Source: Datisca glomerata
Lineage: Eukaryota; Streptophyta; Magnoliopsida; Cucurbitales; Datiscaceae
Reading direction: 5' to 3'
Assembly: GCA_003255025.1 (NCBI GenBank)
Contig: QANY01003970.1
Location: 806,001-870,000 of the forward strand
DNA: 64,000 nt
Shown piece after piece: positions 7,734 through 47,829 of this stretch. Within the stretch, counting starts at the first letter, position 1, and every line of letters starts with the position of its first letter. The notes below the pieces were generated by a model. It worked only from the letters and a program-made list of their open reading frames with translations. It was not told the DNA's origin and did no database searches. The translations under genes and the position numbers were made by a program.

Positions 7734-8517
7734 TCCCAAAATTTGACACTTTCTGGAGTTGCTAATGATTCGTGATTCGCTTAATTACAATGTTGTTAGT
7801 GTTTCTTTTAGTAGCCATGCTATTCGTGATTTTTTTATAGAGTATGGATAAATCGTGACATTAACATTAGATGACATGACCTTAAAAATTTATTTGCCCA
7901 AAGTATGGATAAATCTTGACATTAACGTCAGATAATATGACCCTAAAATTTTATTTGCACGTAACAGTGTGGGAATATAAATCTAAAAATGAATAAACCT
8001 CTGAGTTCAATGTGTTTATTACTCGCCCTAATCTCTTGAGGTTGTGTTTTTTTTAGAAATGGGTTGTGGGGGATTTCTTAAAGTAACAAGTTCACGAATA
8101 TCATTAAAATCTATTGGAAGGACAACAATGAAAATGATAATAACTACAGAGTTGCGGTCATTAAGGTTGATATTATCAAAACACAAAAATCATATAATGT
8201 AAAGACAGTTTTCGCTACTCGTGATCAAATTATAGAAATGACTCCATAGACTTTCGCTTTCATATCTCTCTAAAATTGCAGTCACGTTAGGAGTTTATTC
8301 CTTATGACCTCCTTTTGTCATATTGATCTACGCATTGACTTAGTGATTTTTTGATAATACATTTTGAGCCTCTGAAGTTTATACCTTATACATTATTCAC
8401 GTGTATAACAGCCTGATTTTGTTAACGAAAAAAGTTTTTGGGTTTTTCCTGCTTTAATAATATAACACAACAAAATTTATTTGAATTAGTAAGAAATTAT
8501 GAAGCTATTAGCATCGT
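7734..8517. other. Intergenic region without recognised gene
   Basis: AT-rich sequence with one short internal repeat (AGTATGGATAAATC near 7840 and 7900). No ORF, RNA gene or element was recognised. Confidence 0.5.
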
Positions 8518-32323: not shown

Positions 32324-35300
32324 ATGGCGACCAGCAGACCACCCTTTAAGGTTGTGCATTTTCCGAACATTCTTGTCTCTCTGCTCGTTTTGCAAAAATG
32401 TTTCGCTTTCTTATTTGCTGCATTTTCCGCTTGCGAAAGATAGTTGTAAAATGTACGATAGAATGTGTTTTTTGCAATTCCTCCTCGGAAATTTCAAATA
32501 CTATTGCTTTATTAAACATCAAGGATGATTTTGTAGACGAAGAAATGAAGTTAATTTATTCGTTACGTTTGATTAGCCATAGCTAGAAGCTGCTTTTGAT
32601 TTCACAACTCCATCTATGATTTTCTGAAGAAAATTGTTTCCTGTTTGGAGTCGAATGGTGACGAATGCTGGATTTTTTTTACAGATAATATTGGGGTCGT
32701 CGTCAATGGCTCGCCGACGAATTCTAGCCGAGATGGGATATGAGTTCACAATAATTGTGCGTTTCTTGCTGAAACATTGTCTGTTAATTTGTTCAGGCGT
32801 AAATTTTTTAAGATTAACATTGTGATTATTTAGACTGCAGACATAGATGAAAAAGCGATTAGGAAGGAGAAGCCTGAAGAATTGGTAGTAGCTCTGGCTG
32901 AGGCAAAGGTATGGCTTGTCTACTTGATAGGAATACTTAATGCTCAAAACTCGTGCATTATTCGATATTAAAATTCTTCAATCTCAGTAAAGTAAAATCA
33001 GGGGAGATGTAGTCTTACTCAGCTTCAAGTTACCTTAGATTTCAATCAATTAACTTGTTGCATTGTATTTGAATTGGAACTCACAAATGTTTGTCGTAAA
33101 GAAAATATAACGAGGAATTAACCAATAAGGTCCTTTTCCTCAAAGCGTTAAGTCCGCAAGGCTGGTAGAAAAAAAACTCACAGTTCAAAATGTTGCCAGT
33201 TCTGTCTAGATACCTCAACTTTTGACTATTATGAACCAGAAAAGAGGTCTTATATTTTCTGATAACTAGCTTGATTTTACTTAGGCAGGTGCCATCATAT
33301 CAAAACTCCAAGATACAGGTCAACTAGAGAAGGATGCTCATGCAACTTTGCTAATCACTGCGGATACAGTATGCCTTAATTCCTTTAGATGTTTTTATCC
33401 TTGTTTTTGGCTTTAATTCCTTAATATATTTTTCTCCTCATTCCTGTGGTTCTTCACATAAGTTTTGACCAGGACCACTAGCTGAACCAGTAACACTACT
33501 CACATATCAAGAGTGAATACGACTAAAATCTTGTTGTATTCTATAATATATATCTAACTCGTGTACTCGGGTGTACTCGGTATAAAGTTACACAATAGAA
33601 TCCAACTTCTTCATCTGCTTTATTCGGGAAGTCCGCTGAAGTCCTCATAACAAGAATTTATTATTTTGATTTCTTAATAGATAGCTGATAGCTCATCGTA
33701 AACCCAAAAACACCAAAATCATGACTGAATTCATGAATCCTACTCGCCTTCTAAGCTCCCATTAATTCCATATGCTACTTTTATACCTCACATGGTTGTG
33801 CTCTGATAAAAGATTTAGTTCATGCTATCATGGCATAAATGTACGATCGTATAGTTCTAGCGTTTTTCTCCTCCAGCAATCATTTTTATAAATGTAAGCT
33901 CAAGCTGCCATTTTTAGGATGTGGAGATTTCCACGGTCAAAGATTTGATCAAATAAGATTGTTCCACCGAAGTAGCATGGTTCATTAAGATGCTAGAGAA
34001 AGAACGGCATACATGTACCGTAGAAGGAATATACATGCATCTACATTTGGTACTACCTTACTCAACCCATATAGAAAATTGCATGGGAGTCTAGCAGAAA
34101 ATATTTTGCAACAAGTTTTGCATAAGAATTAATCTTATGATTTCTAATAGGAAGAAAAAGGAAAAACAATCAATTTAATGATAATTTTGTTTGTCTTTCC
34201 CTTGCTTGGTGCAGGATTTGTTGTAGTCATAAAATTTCCCCCTACATCTGATAGTATTACATTAACCTTTGGCTTTATTTTTCTCACTATCAGAATCCAG
34301 AGCTTAATTATTTTTATCGTTGCATCTTATTCTGTATATGAGGTGGTTGTCTACGAAGGGATGATCAGGGAGAAACCATCGAACAAGGATGAAGCACGAG
34401 AGTTTATCAAAGGTATAATTTATGCATTTCTCTCCTAATTACAAAACATTAGTGGATTCACTTATTAAATTTATGCAGTGCAAGCTATTCAGGTTCTCAC
34501 GCAGGAGTAGTAGGATCTATTCTTGTTACCTATTGAATATAATGATGTTTTTTACTTTATTTATTTATTTTAATTTAGGGATAGTTTAGTAATTGCTCAT
34601 ATTGCTTTTCTTCTTTGGGTAGAAATACCTCATTGTATCTAGATTTGTGTTAATTCAATACAACATTTTCTTCTACTTCTTTCTATTTGGTATCAAAGCC
34701 GATATAACCCTAACCCTAACCCTAAACAGCCACCCACCACTACTGCTGCCCTTGACTGCCACTACCGCCTATCTCCATCATCATCCACCACCGTCGGCTG
34801 CCGACCACCTCCGACGACTTTTCCGGGTACTTTTTTTTCCCTTTCCAACTTCATTTTTTTGAAGCGGTTGGTTGCCCTAACTAGTGTGCTGATCAAACCT
34901 AGGGTTTCCCATGATTTTCGGGTTGCTGTGGTTGTAAACCACAGTTTGGTCACATTTTTTGACTTTTTCATGATATAGAAGGCTGTGAACAATCTTTCCT
35001 TGCTCTCCGTCAGATTTTTGGCGTTTTGTGTTGCTTTCTTGGATTCGAGATGTCTGAATCTTTAGGTTTTGCTTGCTACTAAGCCAGATCTAGATTATCG
35101 TGTGTCCGATGAGAGAGTTACTAGCGTCCTGCTGAATGGACACAACTTTACTGCTCCTCCTGCCTCATTGGCCTCAGGTATCCCACTGCTTTTCATGTCC
35201 GCTCTGAGAAACCTAAATGGGTTTTGGATTCCGGTGCTAACGATCATATAACTGGTGAGTTGTCTATATTCTCCACGTCCTTAGATCCGGTTCATAGCTT

Positions 35301-38300
35301 TGTGCGTCTGGCAGACGGTTCTATGATTAGTATGAGTGATATGGGGAGTGTACAACTTTCACCTGATCTTACTCTTTCCTCAGTTTTTCATGTTCCTAAA
35401 TTTGCAATGAACATTTTATCTATCAGCCGTCTTGCTAAATCTCTTAACTGTGCTGTCATTTTCTTAGCTGATAGCTGTTTCCAACAGGACCTAAGTTCAG
35501 GGAGGATTTTTACCAGGGGATATGAGCGAGACGGACTATACTACTTCGGGGACCCACCACCTCTCCAGCCACCAGATTCAGTATTACAGGCTACTTCCTC
35601 TACTATTTTTTATTTCCTCGTTTCTTTTTCTGCTAAAGACATACGCCTTTGGCATGCCCGTTTGGGACATGTCAACTTTCATTACCTTTGTTTGTTATTT
35701 CCCACTTTAGTTGATGCCTGCAAACATTTTCATTTTAAATGTCAGATATGTGAACTCTCAAAACATTGTCGAAAACCTTATATTTCTCGCATGCATAGGT
35801 TACTTGCTATGTTTGACTTGATTCATTCTGATGTGTGGGGGTCCTCCTCTGTTATTTCTATGTTTGAACGTCGTTATTATGTTACTTTTATCGATGACTT
35901 CTCTAGGAGTACTTGGGTTTATTTATTTTAGAAAAGTCTGAGATCTCGAATGTGCTTAAACAGTTTCTTGCCATGATAAAAACTCAGTATAATATTGTAG
36001 TGCGTGGCATTCGGTCTGATAATGGGGGGAGTACATTACTAGTGATCTTGTCACTTATTTATCCAACCTTGGCATTCTCCCGCAGCTTACTTGGCCGTAT
36101 ACCCCTGAACAAAATGGGGTAGCTGAGCGAAATAATCGTTATCTTATGGGTGTTGTCCGATGTCTTCTAAAGGGTATGATTGTTCTTCAATCTTTCTAGG
36201 ACATGGTTGTTCTGACAGCCACATATTTGATTAATAGGGTCCCTAGTAGGATCTTGAGAGGAAAGACTCCTTTATGTGTTCTTCATCCTGAAAAACCTCT
36301 TTTTTCCATTCTTCCTAGAGTTTTTGGTTGCGTTTGCTTTGTTCAGGACAAAGGCTATTCTCGAACAAAGTTGGATGACAAGTTAATTCAATGTGTTTTT
36401 ATGGGTTATTCTTCCAAGTCAAAGGGGTATTGGCGTTATGATCCTTCCACTCAGCATTTTCTCAACTCCTTGGATGTGACCTTCTTGGAGGATACCCCAT
36501 TCTTTAGCACGCCTGACGTTCGTAGGTCTCATATTTCACCTGTTGAGGATTGTCCTCCTCCTGTTCCTATTATTGATCCAACTTCTATGAATGTTCCTAT
36601 TACTGATCCTACTTATATGGATGTTCTTGTTGTCTCTTCCTCTACTTTACCTCTTATCGCAGGTTTTCCTAATCATGTGTATAGTCGTCGCTCTCATATT
36701 CCTGCTCAGGATTCCTCATTGAATGAAGCTACTGAGCCCTCTTTCTCTCCTCCACTCGGCGATATCCTATAAGGGATCATTGTCCTCAGATCGTCTTACC
36801 TTATCTTGCTTTACCAATCACCCTATTGAGAACCATATTTCATATAATGATTTGTCTAGTTCTTTTCAGGGGTTTATTAGTCAGGTTGATTCTACAGTGA
36901 TTCCTAGATTTGTGGCGGAGGCAAAATCAGACCCCCGATGGGTGACTGCTATGTAGGATGAGATGACTGCCTTACAGAATAATCATCATTGGGGCTTGGT
37001 TGCTCTCCTTGAGGAAGATAAGACAGTTGGTGTTCAACTTGAAATATAATGCAGGTGGTACGGTTAATCGATACAAATCTCGTCTAGTAGCCAGATGCTT
37101 TACTCAGATTCCAGACAGATTTTACTGACACGTTTTCCCCGGTTGCTAAACTTACTATTGTTCGACTCATTATCTCTCTTGCTGCTTCCCACTCTTGGCT
37201 CTTGCATAAAATGGATGTCAAGAATACTTTTTTGAATGACGATTTGGATGAGGTGATTTATATGGATCCTCCACCTGGGTTTCGGGTTGAGGGGGAGTAT
37301 TTTGGGAAAGTTTGTCGTTTGAGAAAATCGTTGTATGGGTTGAAACAGTCTCTAAGAGCTTGGTTTGCTCGATTTAGTAAGGTTGTCCTTCGATTGAGTT
37401 TTTTGAGATGTCATTCTGATCACACGTGTTTTATCAAACGGAATCTGATAGTCAATGTGTTATTCTATCAGTTTATGTGGACGACATTATCTTAACAGGT
37501 GATGACACTTTAGGCATTGCTAGAGTCGAGAAAGATCTCAGATCAAGGATCTGAGTGGTCTGAAATATTTTTTGGGGATTGAGATACTTCGTTCCAGGAG
37601 TGGTATCTCTCTCTCAGCGGAAGTATGTACTTGATCTTCTCAGTGACACTAGGATGACAGGATGTAGACCTGCATCCACTCCTGTGGATCTGAACATAAA
37701 ACTTTCTGCTAAATCTGGTGACCCATTGACAGATCCGAGTATGTATAAGTGGTTGGTCGGGAGACTTATTTATCTAACAAACATTCGTCTTGATCTAGCA
37801 TTTGCTGTGAGCTTGTGAGTCAGTTTATGCATATCTTGAGGTATTTAAAATCTTGCCCGGTCTTGATCTTTTCTATAACTCTAAGAACACGTTTGATATA
37901 TCTTGCTTTACTGATGCTGACTATGCTGGGTTTAAGACGGATAGAAGATCTACATCTGGTTTTTGTTTTTTTTATGGGAATCATCTCATCTCTTGGAAAA
38001 GTAAGAAGCAGTCTGTGATTTCTCGATCTTCTGCAGAGGCTGAGTACAGGACTATAGCTCAGGGGGCATGTGAGGCTCTTTGGCTCGACTCTATTCTTGG
38101 AGAACTTGGTTTCCTTGACCGTTTGCCGTTGACTCTGTATTGCGATAATAAGTAAGCTATCATGTTAGCTTCAGATTATGTCCTGCATGAGAGGACTAAA
38201 CATATTGAGGTTGACATCCACTTTATCCTAGAGAAAGTTTGGTCTGGAATTATTTCTACAAAGTTTGTTCCTTCACCTGAAGAAGCTGCTCATGCTCTTA

Positions 38301-39437
38301 CGAAGCCAGACGGGCCATCTATTCTTAAGTCCACTCTTCGCAAGTTGGGCATGATGGACATCTATGCGCCAATTTAAGCGGGAGTGTTGAATATAATGAT
38401 GTTTTTACTTTATTTATTTTAATCTAGGGATTGTTTAGTAATTTCTCTTATTGCTTTTCTTCTTTAGGTATAAATACCCCATTATATCTAGATTTGTGTT
38501 AACTCAATACAACATTTATGCACGGCAGGCTATTCAGGTTCTCACGCAGGAGTAGTAGGATCTATTCTTGTTACCAACCTTAAAACAGGAACAAGAAAAG
38601 CAGGATGGGACGCAGCAGAGGTACTATAGGCTTCAAATTATATATCGATTTCTGGTCATAGAAGAGAATGAGAATACACACAGTTTCTACTTTTAATCCA
38701 TTCTAGTAGATATAGATTCTCACAGGTTATTAAGAACGCGAGAGGTTATATTAGATTTGGGTAGTTTGTGGTGAAAATAGACGGCCCAAATTTGTTGTAG
38801 CTAAAAGACAAAGACAAAGACAAAAAAAGTACATACTGTTTTCCCTTGGTTTTTGTGCCAAACATATCTGAGAGGTTAAAATTTGAGCTTAACAGTCCAA
38901 ATCTGTCAACCATGACCTCCTATTGAGAAACCCTAGTCGGAGATAATTTGTCACCCATTACTAGCGGATTGAATACAATGCAGGTGTATTTCTATGACAT
39001 ACCACGGGACGTTATCGACAGCCTGGTAATATGTTATTCTTTTTCTATTTATCTTTTCCAGAGTCATTTCATTTTCTATAATATTAGTTTTCTCGTTGTC
39101 AATGGTGAACTATGTCAGATTGAGGAGGGAATCACACTCAACGTTGCCGGCGGTCTGATGCTTGAACATCCACTGACATTACCTTTCGTCGAAGCCGTGG
39201 TTAGCTACTTTGCTTCATATTTATGAACTTGCAATTTGTTTCCAAGTATTCTGAAAACTCCCTTAACGATTGCAGCAAAGTACTTTTCTTATCTTTTATT
39301 TATATAAGTTCACAGCAGATCTTTCTGCTTCTTTAGTATATCGGACTAATTTTTATGTATGGCAGGTAGGTTCTTCTGATACTGTGATGGGACTTTCTAA
39401 AGCTCTAACAGAAAAACTCATAAGCGACGCCTTATAA
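32324..39437 (+). CDS. Maf-like nucleoside triphosphate pyrophosphatase
   Basis: Nine exons: 32324-32350, 32685-32756, 32834-32908, 33286-33368 (84 bp by frame, ends uncertain by 1), 34343-34412, 38529-38620, 38984-39025, 39119-39199 and 39366-39437 (TAA). They sum to 615 bp, 204 aa, the normal Maf length. Family motifs are ILGSSSMARRRIL at the N-terminus, the TADIDEKAIR block, TLLITADT with the catalytic Asp, EKPSNKDEAREF, YSGSHAGVVGSILVTN, and the C-terminal NVAGGL and DTVMGLS blocks. Maf/HAM1-type enzymes hydrolyse non-canonical or modified nucleoside triphosphates to monophosphates. The 4.1-kb intron 34413-38528 contains a Ty1/copia element flanked by a 61-bp duplication of the exon-6 start. 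The acceptor in the 3' copy is intact. A Tat LTR lies 150 bp upstream of the ATG. Confidence 0.93.
34470..34530 (+). repeat. 61-bp duplication, 5' copy, with damaged splice acceptor
   Basis: This segment directly abuts the 5' LTR at 34531. It matches 38515-38575 at 58 of 61 positions and contains ten-odd bases of intron plus the first 47 bases of Maf exon 6. All three differences lie at the acceptor: it reads CAGTGCAAGC here against CACGGCAGGC in the 3' copy, so the AG before GCTATTC is AA. Confidence 0.95.
34531..34665 (+). repeat. 5' LTR of the Maf-resident copia element
   Basis: Begins TATTGAATATAATGATG (the terminal TG is TA here) and ends AATACAACA. The TATA-like box reads TAGAAATA against TATAAATA in the 3' LTR, so the promoter may be weakened. 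Confidence 0.9.
34707..34726 (+). repeat. Short telomere-like repeat in the copia leader
   Basis: Three CCCTAA units lie just downstream of the primer binding site. Plant telomere sequence is (TTTAGGG)n; this hexamer form is not exact. Such runs also occur in plant 5' leaders by chance. Confidence 0.6.
35217..38377 (+). pseudogene. Ty1/copia pol polyprotein, broken
   Basis: Protease, GAG-pre-integrase, integrase core and reverse transcriptase/RNase H segments appear in order in shifting frames. The protease DSG motif and the RT YGLKQ block are visible. Integrase is broken by a stop at 35931 and later frameshifts; RT by a stop at 36954 and shifts near 37500; RNase H by a TAA after YCDNK at about 38153. 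No intact product is possible. Confidence 0.92.
38385..38514 (+). repeat. 3' LTR of the Maf-resident copia element
   Basis: Begins TGTTGAATATAATGATG, carries TATAAATACCCC, and ends CAATACAACA. The 3' copy of the 61-bp duplication starts at the next base. Confidence 0.9.
38515..38575 (+). repeat. 61-bp duplication, 3' copy, with intact splice acceptor
   Basis: Abuts the 3' LTR and runs into Maf exon 6. Here the acceptor AG at 38527-38528 is present before GCTATTCAGG, and the reading frame continues YSGSHAGVVG to the rest of the exon. It is the only acceptor that preserves the Maf frame. Confidence 0.95.
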
Positions 39438-46220: not shown

Positions 46221-46359
46221 ATATAGGTAAATTTTATGATACCGGGAAGAAATTTCCGGCATACATCCCCGGTTTTTGTGATCCTTACATTGTATTTGGA
46301 GTAATCTGAGTCACACAAAGTTTAATAGAAAGTAGATTTTTTTTTATAATTTTGTTAAG

Positions 46360-47815
46360 TTCATCAAATACGTAGTGAGATTCACCAATTACGTAGTTGG
46401 GTTCAACAATTACGTAATGGAGTTCACCAAATACATACCAAAGAATAATTCTTGGAGGTGTTCACCAATTACGTAGTGAGGTTCACCAAATACGTAGTGG
46501 AGTTCACCAATTACGTAGTGGGGTTCACCAAATACGTACAAAAGAATAATTCTTGTAGGAGTTCACCAATTACGTAGTGAGGTTCATAATTTTTGGAGGG
46601 GTTCACCAATTACGTACTAGAGTTCACCAATTACGTAGTGATGTTCACCAATTACGTAGTGAGGTTCACCAAATGCGTGCAAAAGAATAATTCTTGGAAG
46701 AGTTCACCAATTACGTAGTGGGGTTCACCAAATACGTACAAAAAGATAATTCTTCGAGAGGTTCACCAAATACGTACAAAATAATAATTCCTGGAGGGGT
46801 TCATCAATTACGTACTGCGGTTCACCAATTACGTAGTAAGGCTCACCAAATAAGTACAAAAGAATAATTCTTGGAGGGGTTCACCAATTACGTACTGAGG
46901 TTCACCAATTACGTAGTAAGGTTCACCAATTACGTAGTGAAATTCACTAAATACGTACAAAAGAATAATTTTTGGAGGGGTTCACCAATTACGTACTAAG
47001 GTTCACCAATTACGTAGTGAAATTCACCAAATACGCACAAAAGAATAATTCTTGGAGGGGTTCACCAATTACGTACTGAGGTTCACCAATTACGTAGTGA
47101 GGTTCATAATTTTTGGAGGGGTTCACCAATTACGTACTAGAGTTCACCAATTACGTAGTGATGTTCACCAATTACGTAGTGAGGTTCACCAAATGCGTGC
47201 AAAAGAATAATTCTTGGAGGAGTTCACCAATTACGTAGTGGGGTTCACCAAATACGTACAAAAGAATAATTCCTGGAGGGGTTCACCAATTACGTAGTGG
47301 AGTTCACCAAATACGTACAAACGAATAATTCTTGAAGGGGTTCATCAATTACGTACTAGGGTTAACCAATTACATTGTGGGGTTCACCAAATACGTGCAC
47401 AAGAATAATTTCTGGAGGGGTTCAGCAATTACGTATTGAAAATTCACCAATTATGTAGTGGGGTTCATCAATTACGTAGTGAGGTTCATCAAATACGTAC
47501 AAAAGAATAATTCTTGAAGGGGTTCACCAATTACGTACTGGGGTTCACCAATTACATAGTGGGGTTCACCAAATACGTACAAAAAAATAATTCTTAGAGG
47601 AGTTTACCCACTACGTAGTGTGGTTCACCAAATACGACAAAAGAATAATTCTTGGAGAGGTTCACCAATTATGTACTGGGGTTTACCAATTACGTAGTGC
47701 AGTTCACCAAATACTTATAAAAGAATAATTCTTAGAGGGGTTGGACCAATTACGTAGTGGAGTTCACCAATTATGTACAAAAGAATAATAATTCGTGGGA
47801 GGGGTTCACAGAACA
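46360..47815. repeat. 1.4-kb minisatellite with TACGTA cores
   Basis: The basic unit is about 20 bp, GTTCACCAATTACGTAGTGG, alternating with GTTCACCAAATACGTACAAA and a spacer AAAGAATAATTCTTGGAGGG. These combine into a 60-100-bp higher-order unit. A ~175-bp block at about 46569-46740 recurs almost exactly at about 47091-47265. Most subunits keep the palindrome TACGTA or its variant, giving dozens of ACGT cores. No ORF spans the array. Confidence 0.93.
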
Positions 47816-47829
47816 CGTACAACCTAATT

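Follow-up and report, generated by a model that had tools for sequence, protein, structure and literature searches.

We describe here a Ty1/copia retrotransposon inserted at an intron-exon boundary of the Maf gene of Datisca glomerata, within a stretch of 64,000 nucleotides (positions 806,001 to 870,000 of contig QANY01003970.1, assembly GCA_003255025.1; hereafter, the window). The target duplication of about 5 base pairs (bp) usual for copia elements was not found around this copy; a direct repeat of about 60 bp adjoins the element on both sides instead, and it is a real, well-bounded long target duplication of an already known kind. What is new is the truncated 3' long terminal repeat (LTR) of this copy and a second long duplication within the same family. 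The copy probably entered Maf by a non-canonical route in which its right end was joined via host repair.

The element and its flanking duplication

Judged by its sequence, the inserted element is a Ty1/copia LTR retrotransposon, incomplete at its right end. It has the copia layout of two LTRs, the left one followed by a primer binding site (PBS) and the truncated right one preceded by a purine tract, and the copia order of pol, with integrase-side domains (gag-pre-integrase, 35.1-35.9 kb) before the reverse transcriptase (RVT_2, 37.1-37.5 kb). The pol reading frames are split into separate open reading frames (ORFs), and the fourth ORF piece, 37811-38152, had no Pfam match. The features are listed below.

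34469..34530, + strand: 5' copy of the target duplication (final 14-15 bp of the intron, then 47 bp of exon 6), with AA at the correct acceptor position (34482-34483)
34531..34687, + strand: 5' LTR, complete (TATTG...CTATT) by comparison with other family copies
34688..34699, + strand: PBS, tggtatcaaagc; a similar sequence stands in the same place after the 5' LTRs of other copies
35125..37495, + strand: pol in broken pieces that keep the copia order (Pol_BBD and gag-pre-integrase region 35125-35928, retroviral SH3-like 36200-36769, RVT_2 37091-37492), from Pfam on four separate ORF pieces
38385..38517, + strand: 3' LTR, truncated, stopping 19-23 bases short of the family LTR end, from LTR alignment and family comparison
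38514..38517, + strand: ATTT junction microhomology, common to the LTR (34665-34668) and the target (34469-34472)
38514..38575, + strand: 3' copy of the target duplication, acceptor CAG (38526-38528) and first 47 bp of exon 6

The PBS is of a type that we take to be initiator-Met. Telomere-like CCCTAA repeats follow it directly (34708-34730), as they do in the leaders of other family copies.

An initial annotation of this DNA had reported that 34470-34530 and 38515-38575 are identical at 58 of 61 positions and span a Maf intron-exon boundary, and our repeat comparison confirmed both statements; taken as 34469-34530 and 38514-38575, the repeat is 62 nucleotides long. At 58-62 bp the direct repeats exceed 10 bp, and they begin precisely where the element stops, on the left at an intact end and on the right at a truncated one. 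The three differences between the copies (34478 G/C, 34479 T/G and 34483 A/G), which that annotation had placed within 10 bp at this site, fall inside 6 bp (P 0.016 for so tight a cluster under random placement), and the 47-bp exon part is identical in both. At the divergence of the LTRs, zero differences in 46 bp would have a probability of 0.025 if both copies drift and of 0.16 if only one does. When the assembly (678 Mb, 1358 contigs) was searched with a 131-base probe across the left copy (34400-34530), just two places matched, both being the duplication copies, so that the segment is not a common repeat.

Aligned up to CAACA, the two LTRs show 120 matches, 10 substitutions and 5 gap columns. 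If the substitution rate is assumed to be 1.3e-8 per site per year, such divergence corresponds to about 3 million years, a figure that depends on the assumed rate. The divergence of the duplication (3/61) does not differ significantly from that of the LTRs (10/130; Fisher P 0.56), and such similarity would fit an origin of the repeats at or near the time of insertion, although the test is weak.

The family LTR end, the 5-bp norm and a second long duplication

The initial annotation had the repeats abutting both LTRs, which is correct for the complete 5' LTR, whereas the 3' copy adjoins an LTR from which 19-23 family bases are gone. In other copies CAACA is not the end: a pyrimidine-rich stretch follows and carries the LTR about 20 bases further, to CTATT or small variants of it. 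This CTATT end borders the PBS in 5' LTRs and flanking DNA in 3' LTRs; an LTR ending at CAACA was thus rejected. In a later LTR search (best 40 of 236 candidates), 38 of 40 matches reach query base 218 or beyond and one, L069, in which the LTR is followed by PBS-like sequence, ends at 211, while the Maf copy stops earliest, at 199. The Maf 3' LTR is therefore short by 19-23 bases, a range that reflects the ATTT common to LTR and target. By a formula worked by hand, at least 4 shared bases are expected in about 2% of random joins in DNA of 65% A+T, so the microhomology is suggestive only. The left LTR starts TATTG, not TGTTG; damage to the 5' LTR was rejected as the reason for this TA start, since two other 5' LTRs that begin TATTG (L010/L038 and L024/L048) have exact 5-bp duplications, and for the same reason we take the left end as complete. 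The 3' LTR holds, a short way upstream of Maf exon 6, a TATA-like sequence (38469-38476) that is altered in the 5' LTR and is a possible promoter for the downstream Maf exons.

The family normally duplicates 5 bp. Among 27 LTR pairs, the Maf copy included, 16 have an exact 5-bp duplication, 6 have one with one mismatch, 3 have no recognizable duplication (L015/L056, L026/L059 and L034/L054) and 2 have a long one. A control of 600 mismatched flank pairs gave 1 exact 5-bp match, 22 with one mismatch and, in an ungapped long-repeat test, 0 long repeats. In this survey, 25 pairs were scored by script with hand-chosen anchors for the LTR ends, and those on C469 and C843 were read by eye. The copies came from six LTR searches, of which the best 40 of 197, 226, 288, 417, 236 and 231 candidates were taken; this sampling favors copies close to the query, and 2/27 is for that reason not an unbiased rate. 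Left uncounted, as unpaired, were 8 of 20 3' LTRs with upstream regions, 3 of 7 5' LTRs with downstream regions, 5 of 8 single LTRs (L062, L063, L067, L068 and L069), 4 of 6 further LTRs that were followed and one region (L081).

The second long case is a duplication of 70-72 bp bounded by the LTRs, with 2 substitutions and a 2-bp gap, and its 3' LTR is complete:

L021 1654-1725 with L046 2645-2714 (contig C599, about 33822-37902): second long target duplication, found by blastn

The ungapped long-repeat test does not flag this pair on account of the gap; blastn did. Its repeats differ at 2/70 and its LTRs at 13/150 positions (Fisher P 0.15, a weak test with few sites). In both long cases the duplication begins where the element stops, and there is no additional 5-bp duplication. 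A family rule of long duplications was rejected, with just 2 of 27 pairs showing one; since the family normally makes 5-bp duplications, the long ones are better regarded as an occasional, repair-like outcome.

Several other candidates were set aside during this survey. On contig C1034 (452878-456770; L013, L020 and L071), two 3' LTR ends lie about 3.7 kb apart and are followed by the same 117 bp; the L013/L020 pair was not counted, this common sequence being a local duplication of element end and flank. Matches in L016/L042 and L019/L044 were dismissed, as they do not adjoin the LTRs. Besides, one family copy (L065, C835:344703-345639) lies inside another family LTR and has a 5-bp duplication in which one base is mismatched.

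The Maf gene and its splice acceptor

The host gene is a plant Maf, a nucleoside triphosphate pyrophosphatase-like protein (Pfam Maf, PF02545, E 8e-42 with the model that has the earlier first exon). Its features are as follows.

32324..39437, + strand: Maf gene, 9 exons, 204 codons plus stop, spliced by script, with GT-AG at every intron
32324-32350, 32685-32756, 32834-32908, 33285-33368, 34343-34412, 38529-38620, 38984-39025, 39119-39199, 39366-39437, + strand: Maf exons
34413..38528, + strand: intron between coding exons 5 and 6, 4116 bp now and 71 bp in a joined-flank model without the element

The splice from 34412 to 38529 had been proposed at the outset as giving 205 codons. That junction leaves an open frame, and 205 codons are indeed obtained from the ATG at 32655, but the first exon so chosen is the wrong one: the first residues from this ATG do not match those of homologues, and 204 residues are likelier. 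The first exon is likely 32324-32350, whose 27 bp code for MATSRPPFK and join the acceptor ttttacag before 32685; ttttttttacag ends at 32684, just before exon 2. The resulting length is that of homologues P0002, P0003 and P0004. Among the best 120 homologues listed, all the named ones are from plants, and the named full-length protein closest to the query is P0002, a 204-residue protein of Tripterygium wilfordii that is 84% identical over 96% of the query. In 119 of these 120 (114 by pattern and 5 by reading) there are no extra residues at the exon 5/6 junction. Together with the 204-residue length, this points to 34412 to 38529 as the splice that would give a normal protein. The sole exception, P0014, is an annotated isoform (X1) of T. 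wilfordii that retains extra residues from the end of apparently the same intron, so the junction may be alternatively spliced in that relative.

Within the assembly, a protein search found two Maf places, namely the gene itself and one diverged paralogue at C514:1281986-1284718 (covered in part by L098), which has a single copy of the exon and a short intron at the homologous position; a hidden Markov model search of the whole genome with Maf gave no match, probably owing to the short exons. The intron position between exons 5 and 6 thus already exists in a paralogue free of the element. At the insertion site, the acceptor region now consists of the last 14 bp of the joined-flank intron and the LTR end. 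As the right-hand copy gives a full acceptor and exon 6, Maf would still be readable, its open frame being intact through the 34412 to 38529 splice.

It had been further proposed that the 5' copy lost its acceptor AG while the 3' copy kept it, and that loss of this decoy acceptor preserved gene function. The correct acceptor position of the 5' copy does read AA, yet two other AGs persist alongside, at 34477-34478 and 34483-34484, and use of either would shift the frame and bring stop codons about ten codons on. The polarity of the differences can be judged from two comparisons, both distant and both of a short stretch that is loosely conserved: TTGCAG precedes the exon in the C514 paralogue, and back-translation of the Tripterygium isoform, in which the end of the intron is read through, implies a pyrimidine at the same place. 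They suggest that T at 34479 is old and G at 38524 new in the working copy, and that A at 34483 is new in the left copy, while the 34478/38523 difference has no polarity from outgroups. With changes split between both copies, one of them apparently in the working one, and with two AGs beside the lost one, the account of selection against a decoy is weakened. A splice rescue of this kind, in which loss of the decoy would have preserved gene function, is weakly supported.

Mode of insertion, alternatives and precedents

Which mechanism could have produced this arrangement? The left end, with its 5' LTR, would have been joined precisely. The right end would not have been joined at the normal 5-bp stagger but would have lost about 20 bases and then been joined, through ATTT, to a chromosome end bearing a further copy of some 60 bp of the target, which fill-in or repair copying would have made where the break was widely offset. 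The right-hand copy would then have supplied the full acceptor and exon 6, leaving the element and the left-hand exon piece within an enlarged intron. We infer a single event, in keeping with the similar divergence of the duplication and the LTRs; the precise left end and the resected right one, joined at a microhomology, point to host end joining at the right side. As for the source of the extra 60 bp, the sequence fits fill-in at an offset break and copying from an empty sister or homologue alike.

Several points weigh against this interpretation. The single-copy state before insertion is drawn from the search of the genome itself and from a diverged paralogue. Of the four LTR ends that the two long cases have between them, three are precise, and integrase accounts for this better than plain capture of a loose complementary DNA does; the marks of end joining (ATTT and the 19-23 lost LTR bases) are confined to the right junction of the Maf copy, absent from its left junction and from L021, and the L021/L046 pair shows no end loss. 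A history in two steps, although unlikely in our estimation, is also compatible with the data. In such a history, a canonical insertion with a 5-bp duplication (TTACC) would have broken exon 6 and, later or upon failed gap filling, the right end would have been copied about 60 bp leftward from an empty sister or homologue and end-joined to the resected 3' LTR, restoring acceptor and exon. This accounts for a precise 5' LTR end beside a resected, microhomology-bearing 3' LTR and for the direct contact between duplication and element in both long cases, but it needs an extra event that the sequence does not separate from a single one, and the 3' LTR end of L021 is complete. On a wider and rather doubtful formulation, the few percent of family insertions represented by 2/27 pairs would be failed integrations, in which one LTR end, or both, would be attached by integrase, the join on the right would fail, and the broken chromosome end would acquire 60-70 bp copied from an empty sister or homologue ahead of end joining; at a splice boundary, the repair itself would then rescue the gene.

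The precise LTR ends, both of them complete in L021, would suit an integrase that performed both joins at target positions about 60 bp apart, by a wide stagger or two half-site joins, with gap filling making the duplication. We regard this as improbable: the stagger is 5 bp, exactly or with one mismatch, in 22 of 27 pairs, and the Maf copy does not have the 3' terminal bases that integrase would use. An unusual integration, by either a wide stagger or a repair-mediated break, had been suggested in the initial annotation; the family norm, the resected 3' LTR and the 4-bp microhomology argue for an unusual, repair-mediated insertion. Tandem repeats of similar unit size do occur elsewhere in the window, at 852-970 and 7841-7958 (two copies each, of 59- and 61-bp units, with 98% and 87% matches), and a tandem duplication of about 60 bp could in principle have come before an element that landed exactly at its junction. 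Nevertheless, the junction shows no additional 5-bp duplication (3 of 5 bases differ), for which reason a pre-existing repeat was rejected as the source, and an exact-junction insertion would be needed at L021 too, which makes this course of events very unlikely. An assembly error or chimeric join is scarcely credible: with 3 differences between the copies and 10 between the LTRs, they are not one stretch placed twice, and the Maf exons are collinear on both sides.

Long duplications of comparable form are on record. HERV-K insertions with unusually long target site duplications were reportedly described by Mamedov in 2004, and Schiml and colleagues, as well as Vaughn and Bennetzen, are said to have worked in plants on tandem duplications from offset-nick breaks. 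By analogy, the closest precedent is the HERV-K (HML-2) family, for which 451 duplications were inferred and 8 entries of Table 2 exceed 10 bp (13, 18, 61, 96, 111, 206, 250 and 450 bp), the 111-bp entry being a truncated provirus (Kahyo 2017, PMC5488345). HERV-K resembles the Maf copia in being an LTR element that normally makes 5-6 bp duplications, with a minority of long LTR-bounded repeats. However, it is an animal retrovirus family, the pre-insertion site was determined for two entries there and for none here, its authors caution that later rearrangement can mimic long duplications, and duplication of a splice site is not mentioned in the parts of the article used here (PMC5488345).

Tandem duplications, some of 43-49 bp, arise at breaks with 3' overhangs by fill-in before end joining; as in the Maf case, tens of bp are duplicated, but no captured element between the copies is described in the sections consulted (PMC8355091). 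Capture of retro-sequences at double-strand breaks involves microhomology and no integrase duplication, with one natural case bearing 10-bp repeats; truncation affects both ends of the two natural MuERV-L pieces, whereas the Maf copia has a complete left LTR end (PMC4516963). Integrase-independent insertion has been reviewed (PMC12786077), and flanking repeats longer than 30 bp are described at moved Arabidopsis genes (PMC2869330). Introners recruit splice sites from their target site duplication (PMC9860276), and the Maf copy resembles them in having splice sites within the duplicated target; at Maf, however, an intron already present in the element-free paralogue was enlarged and no new one was made at the insertion. 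A search of the literature with a limited library and set of terms (titles and beginnings of abstracts) found no plant copia with so long a duplication.

With the two long cases, a single plant family that itself normally duplicates 5 bp offers an example of LTR insertions that host repair apparently completed, and the Maf copy indicates how a host gene can stay readable when a splice acceptor falls within a long duplication. The family could serve to measure how frequently integration junctions fail in plants. Elsewhere in the window, a long tandem array of about 21-bp units with higher-order arrangements occupies 46359-47822.

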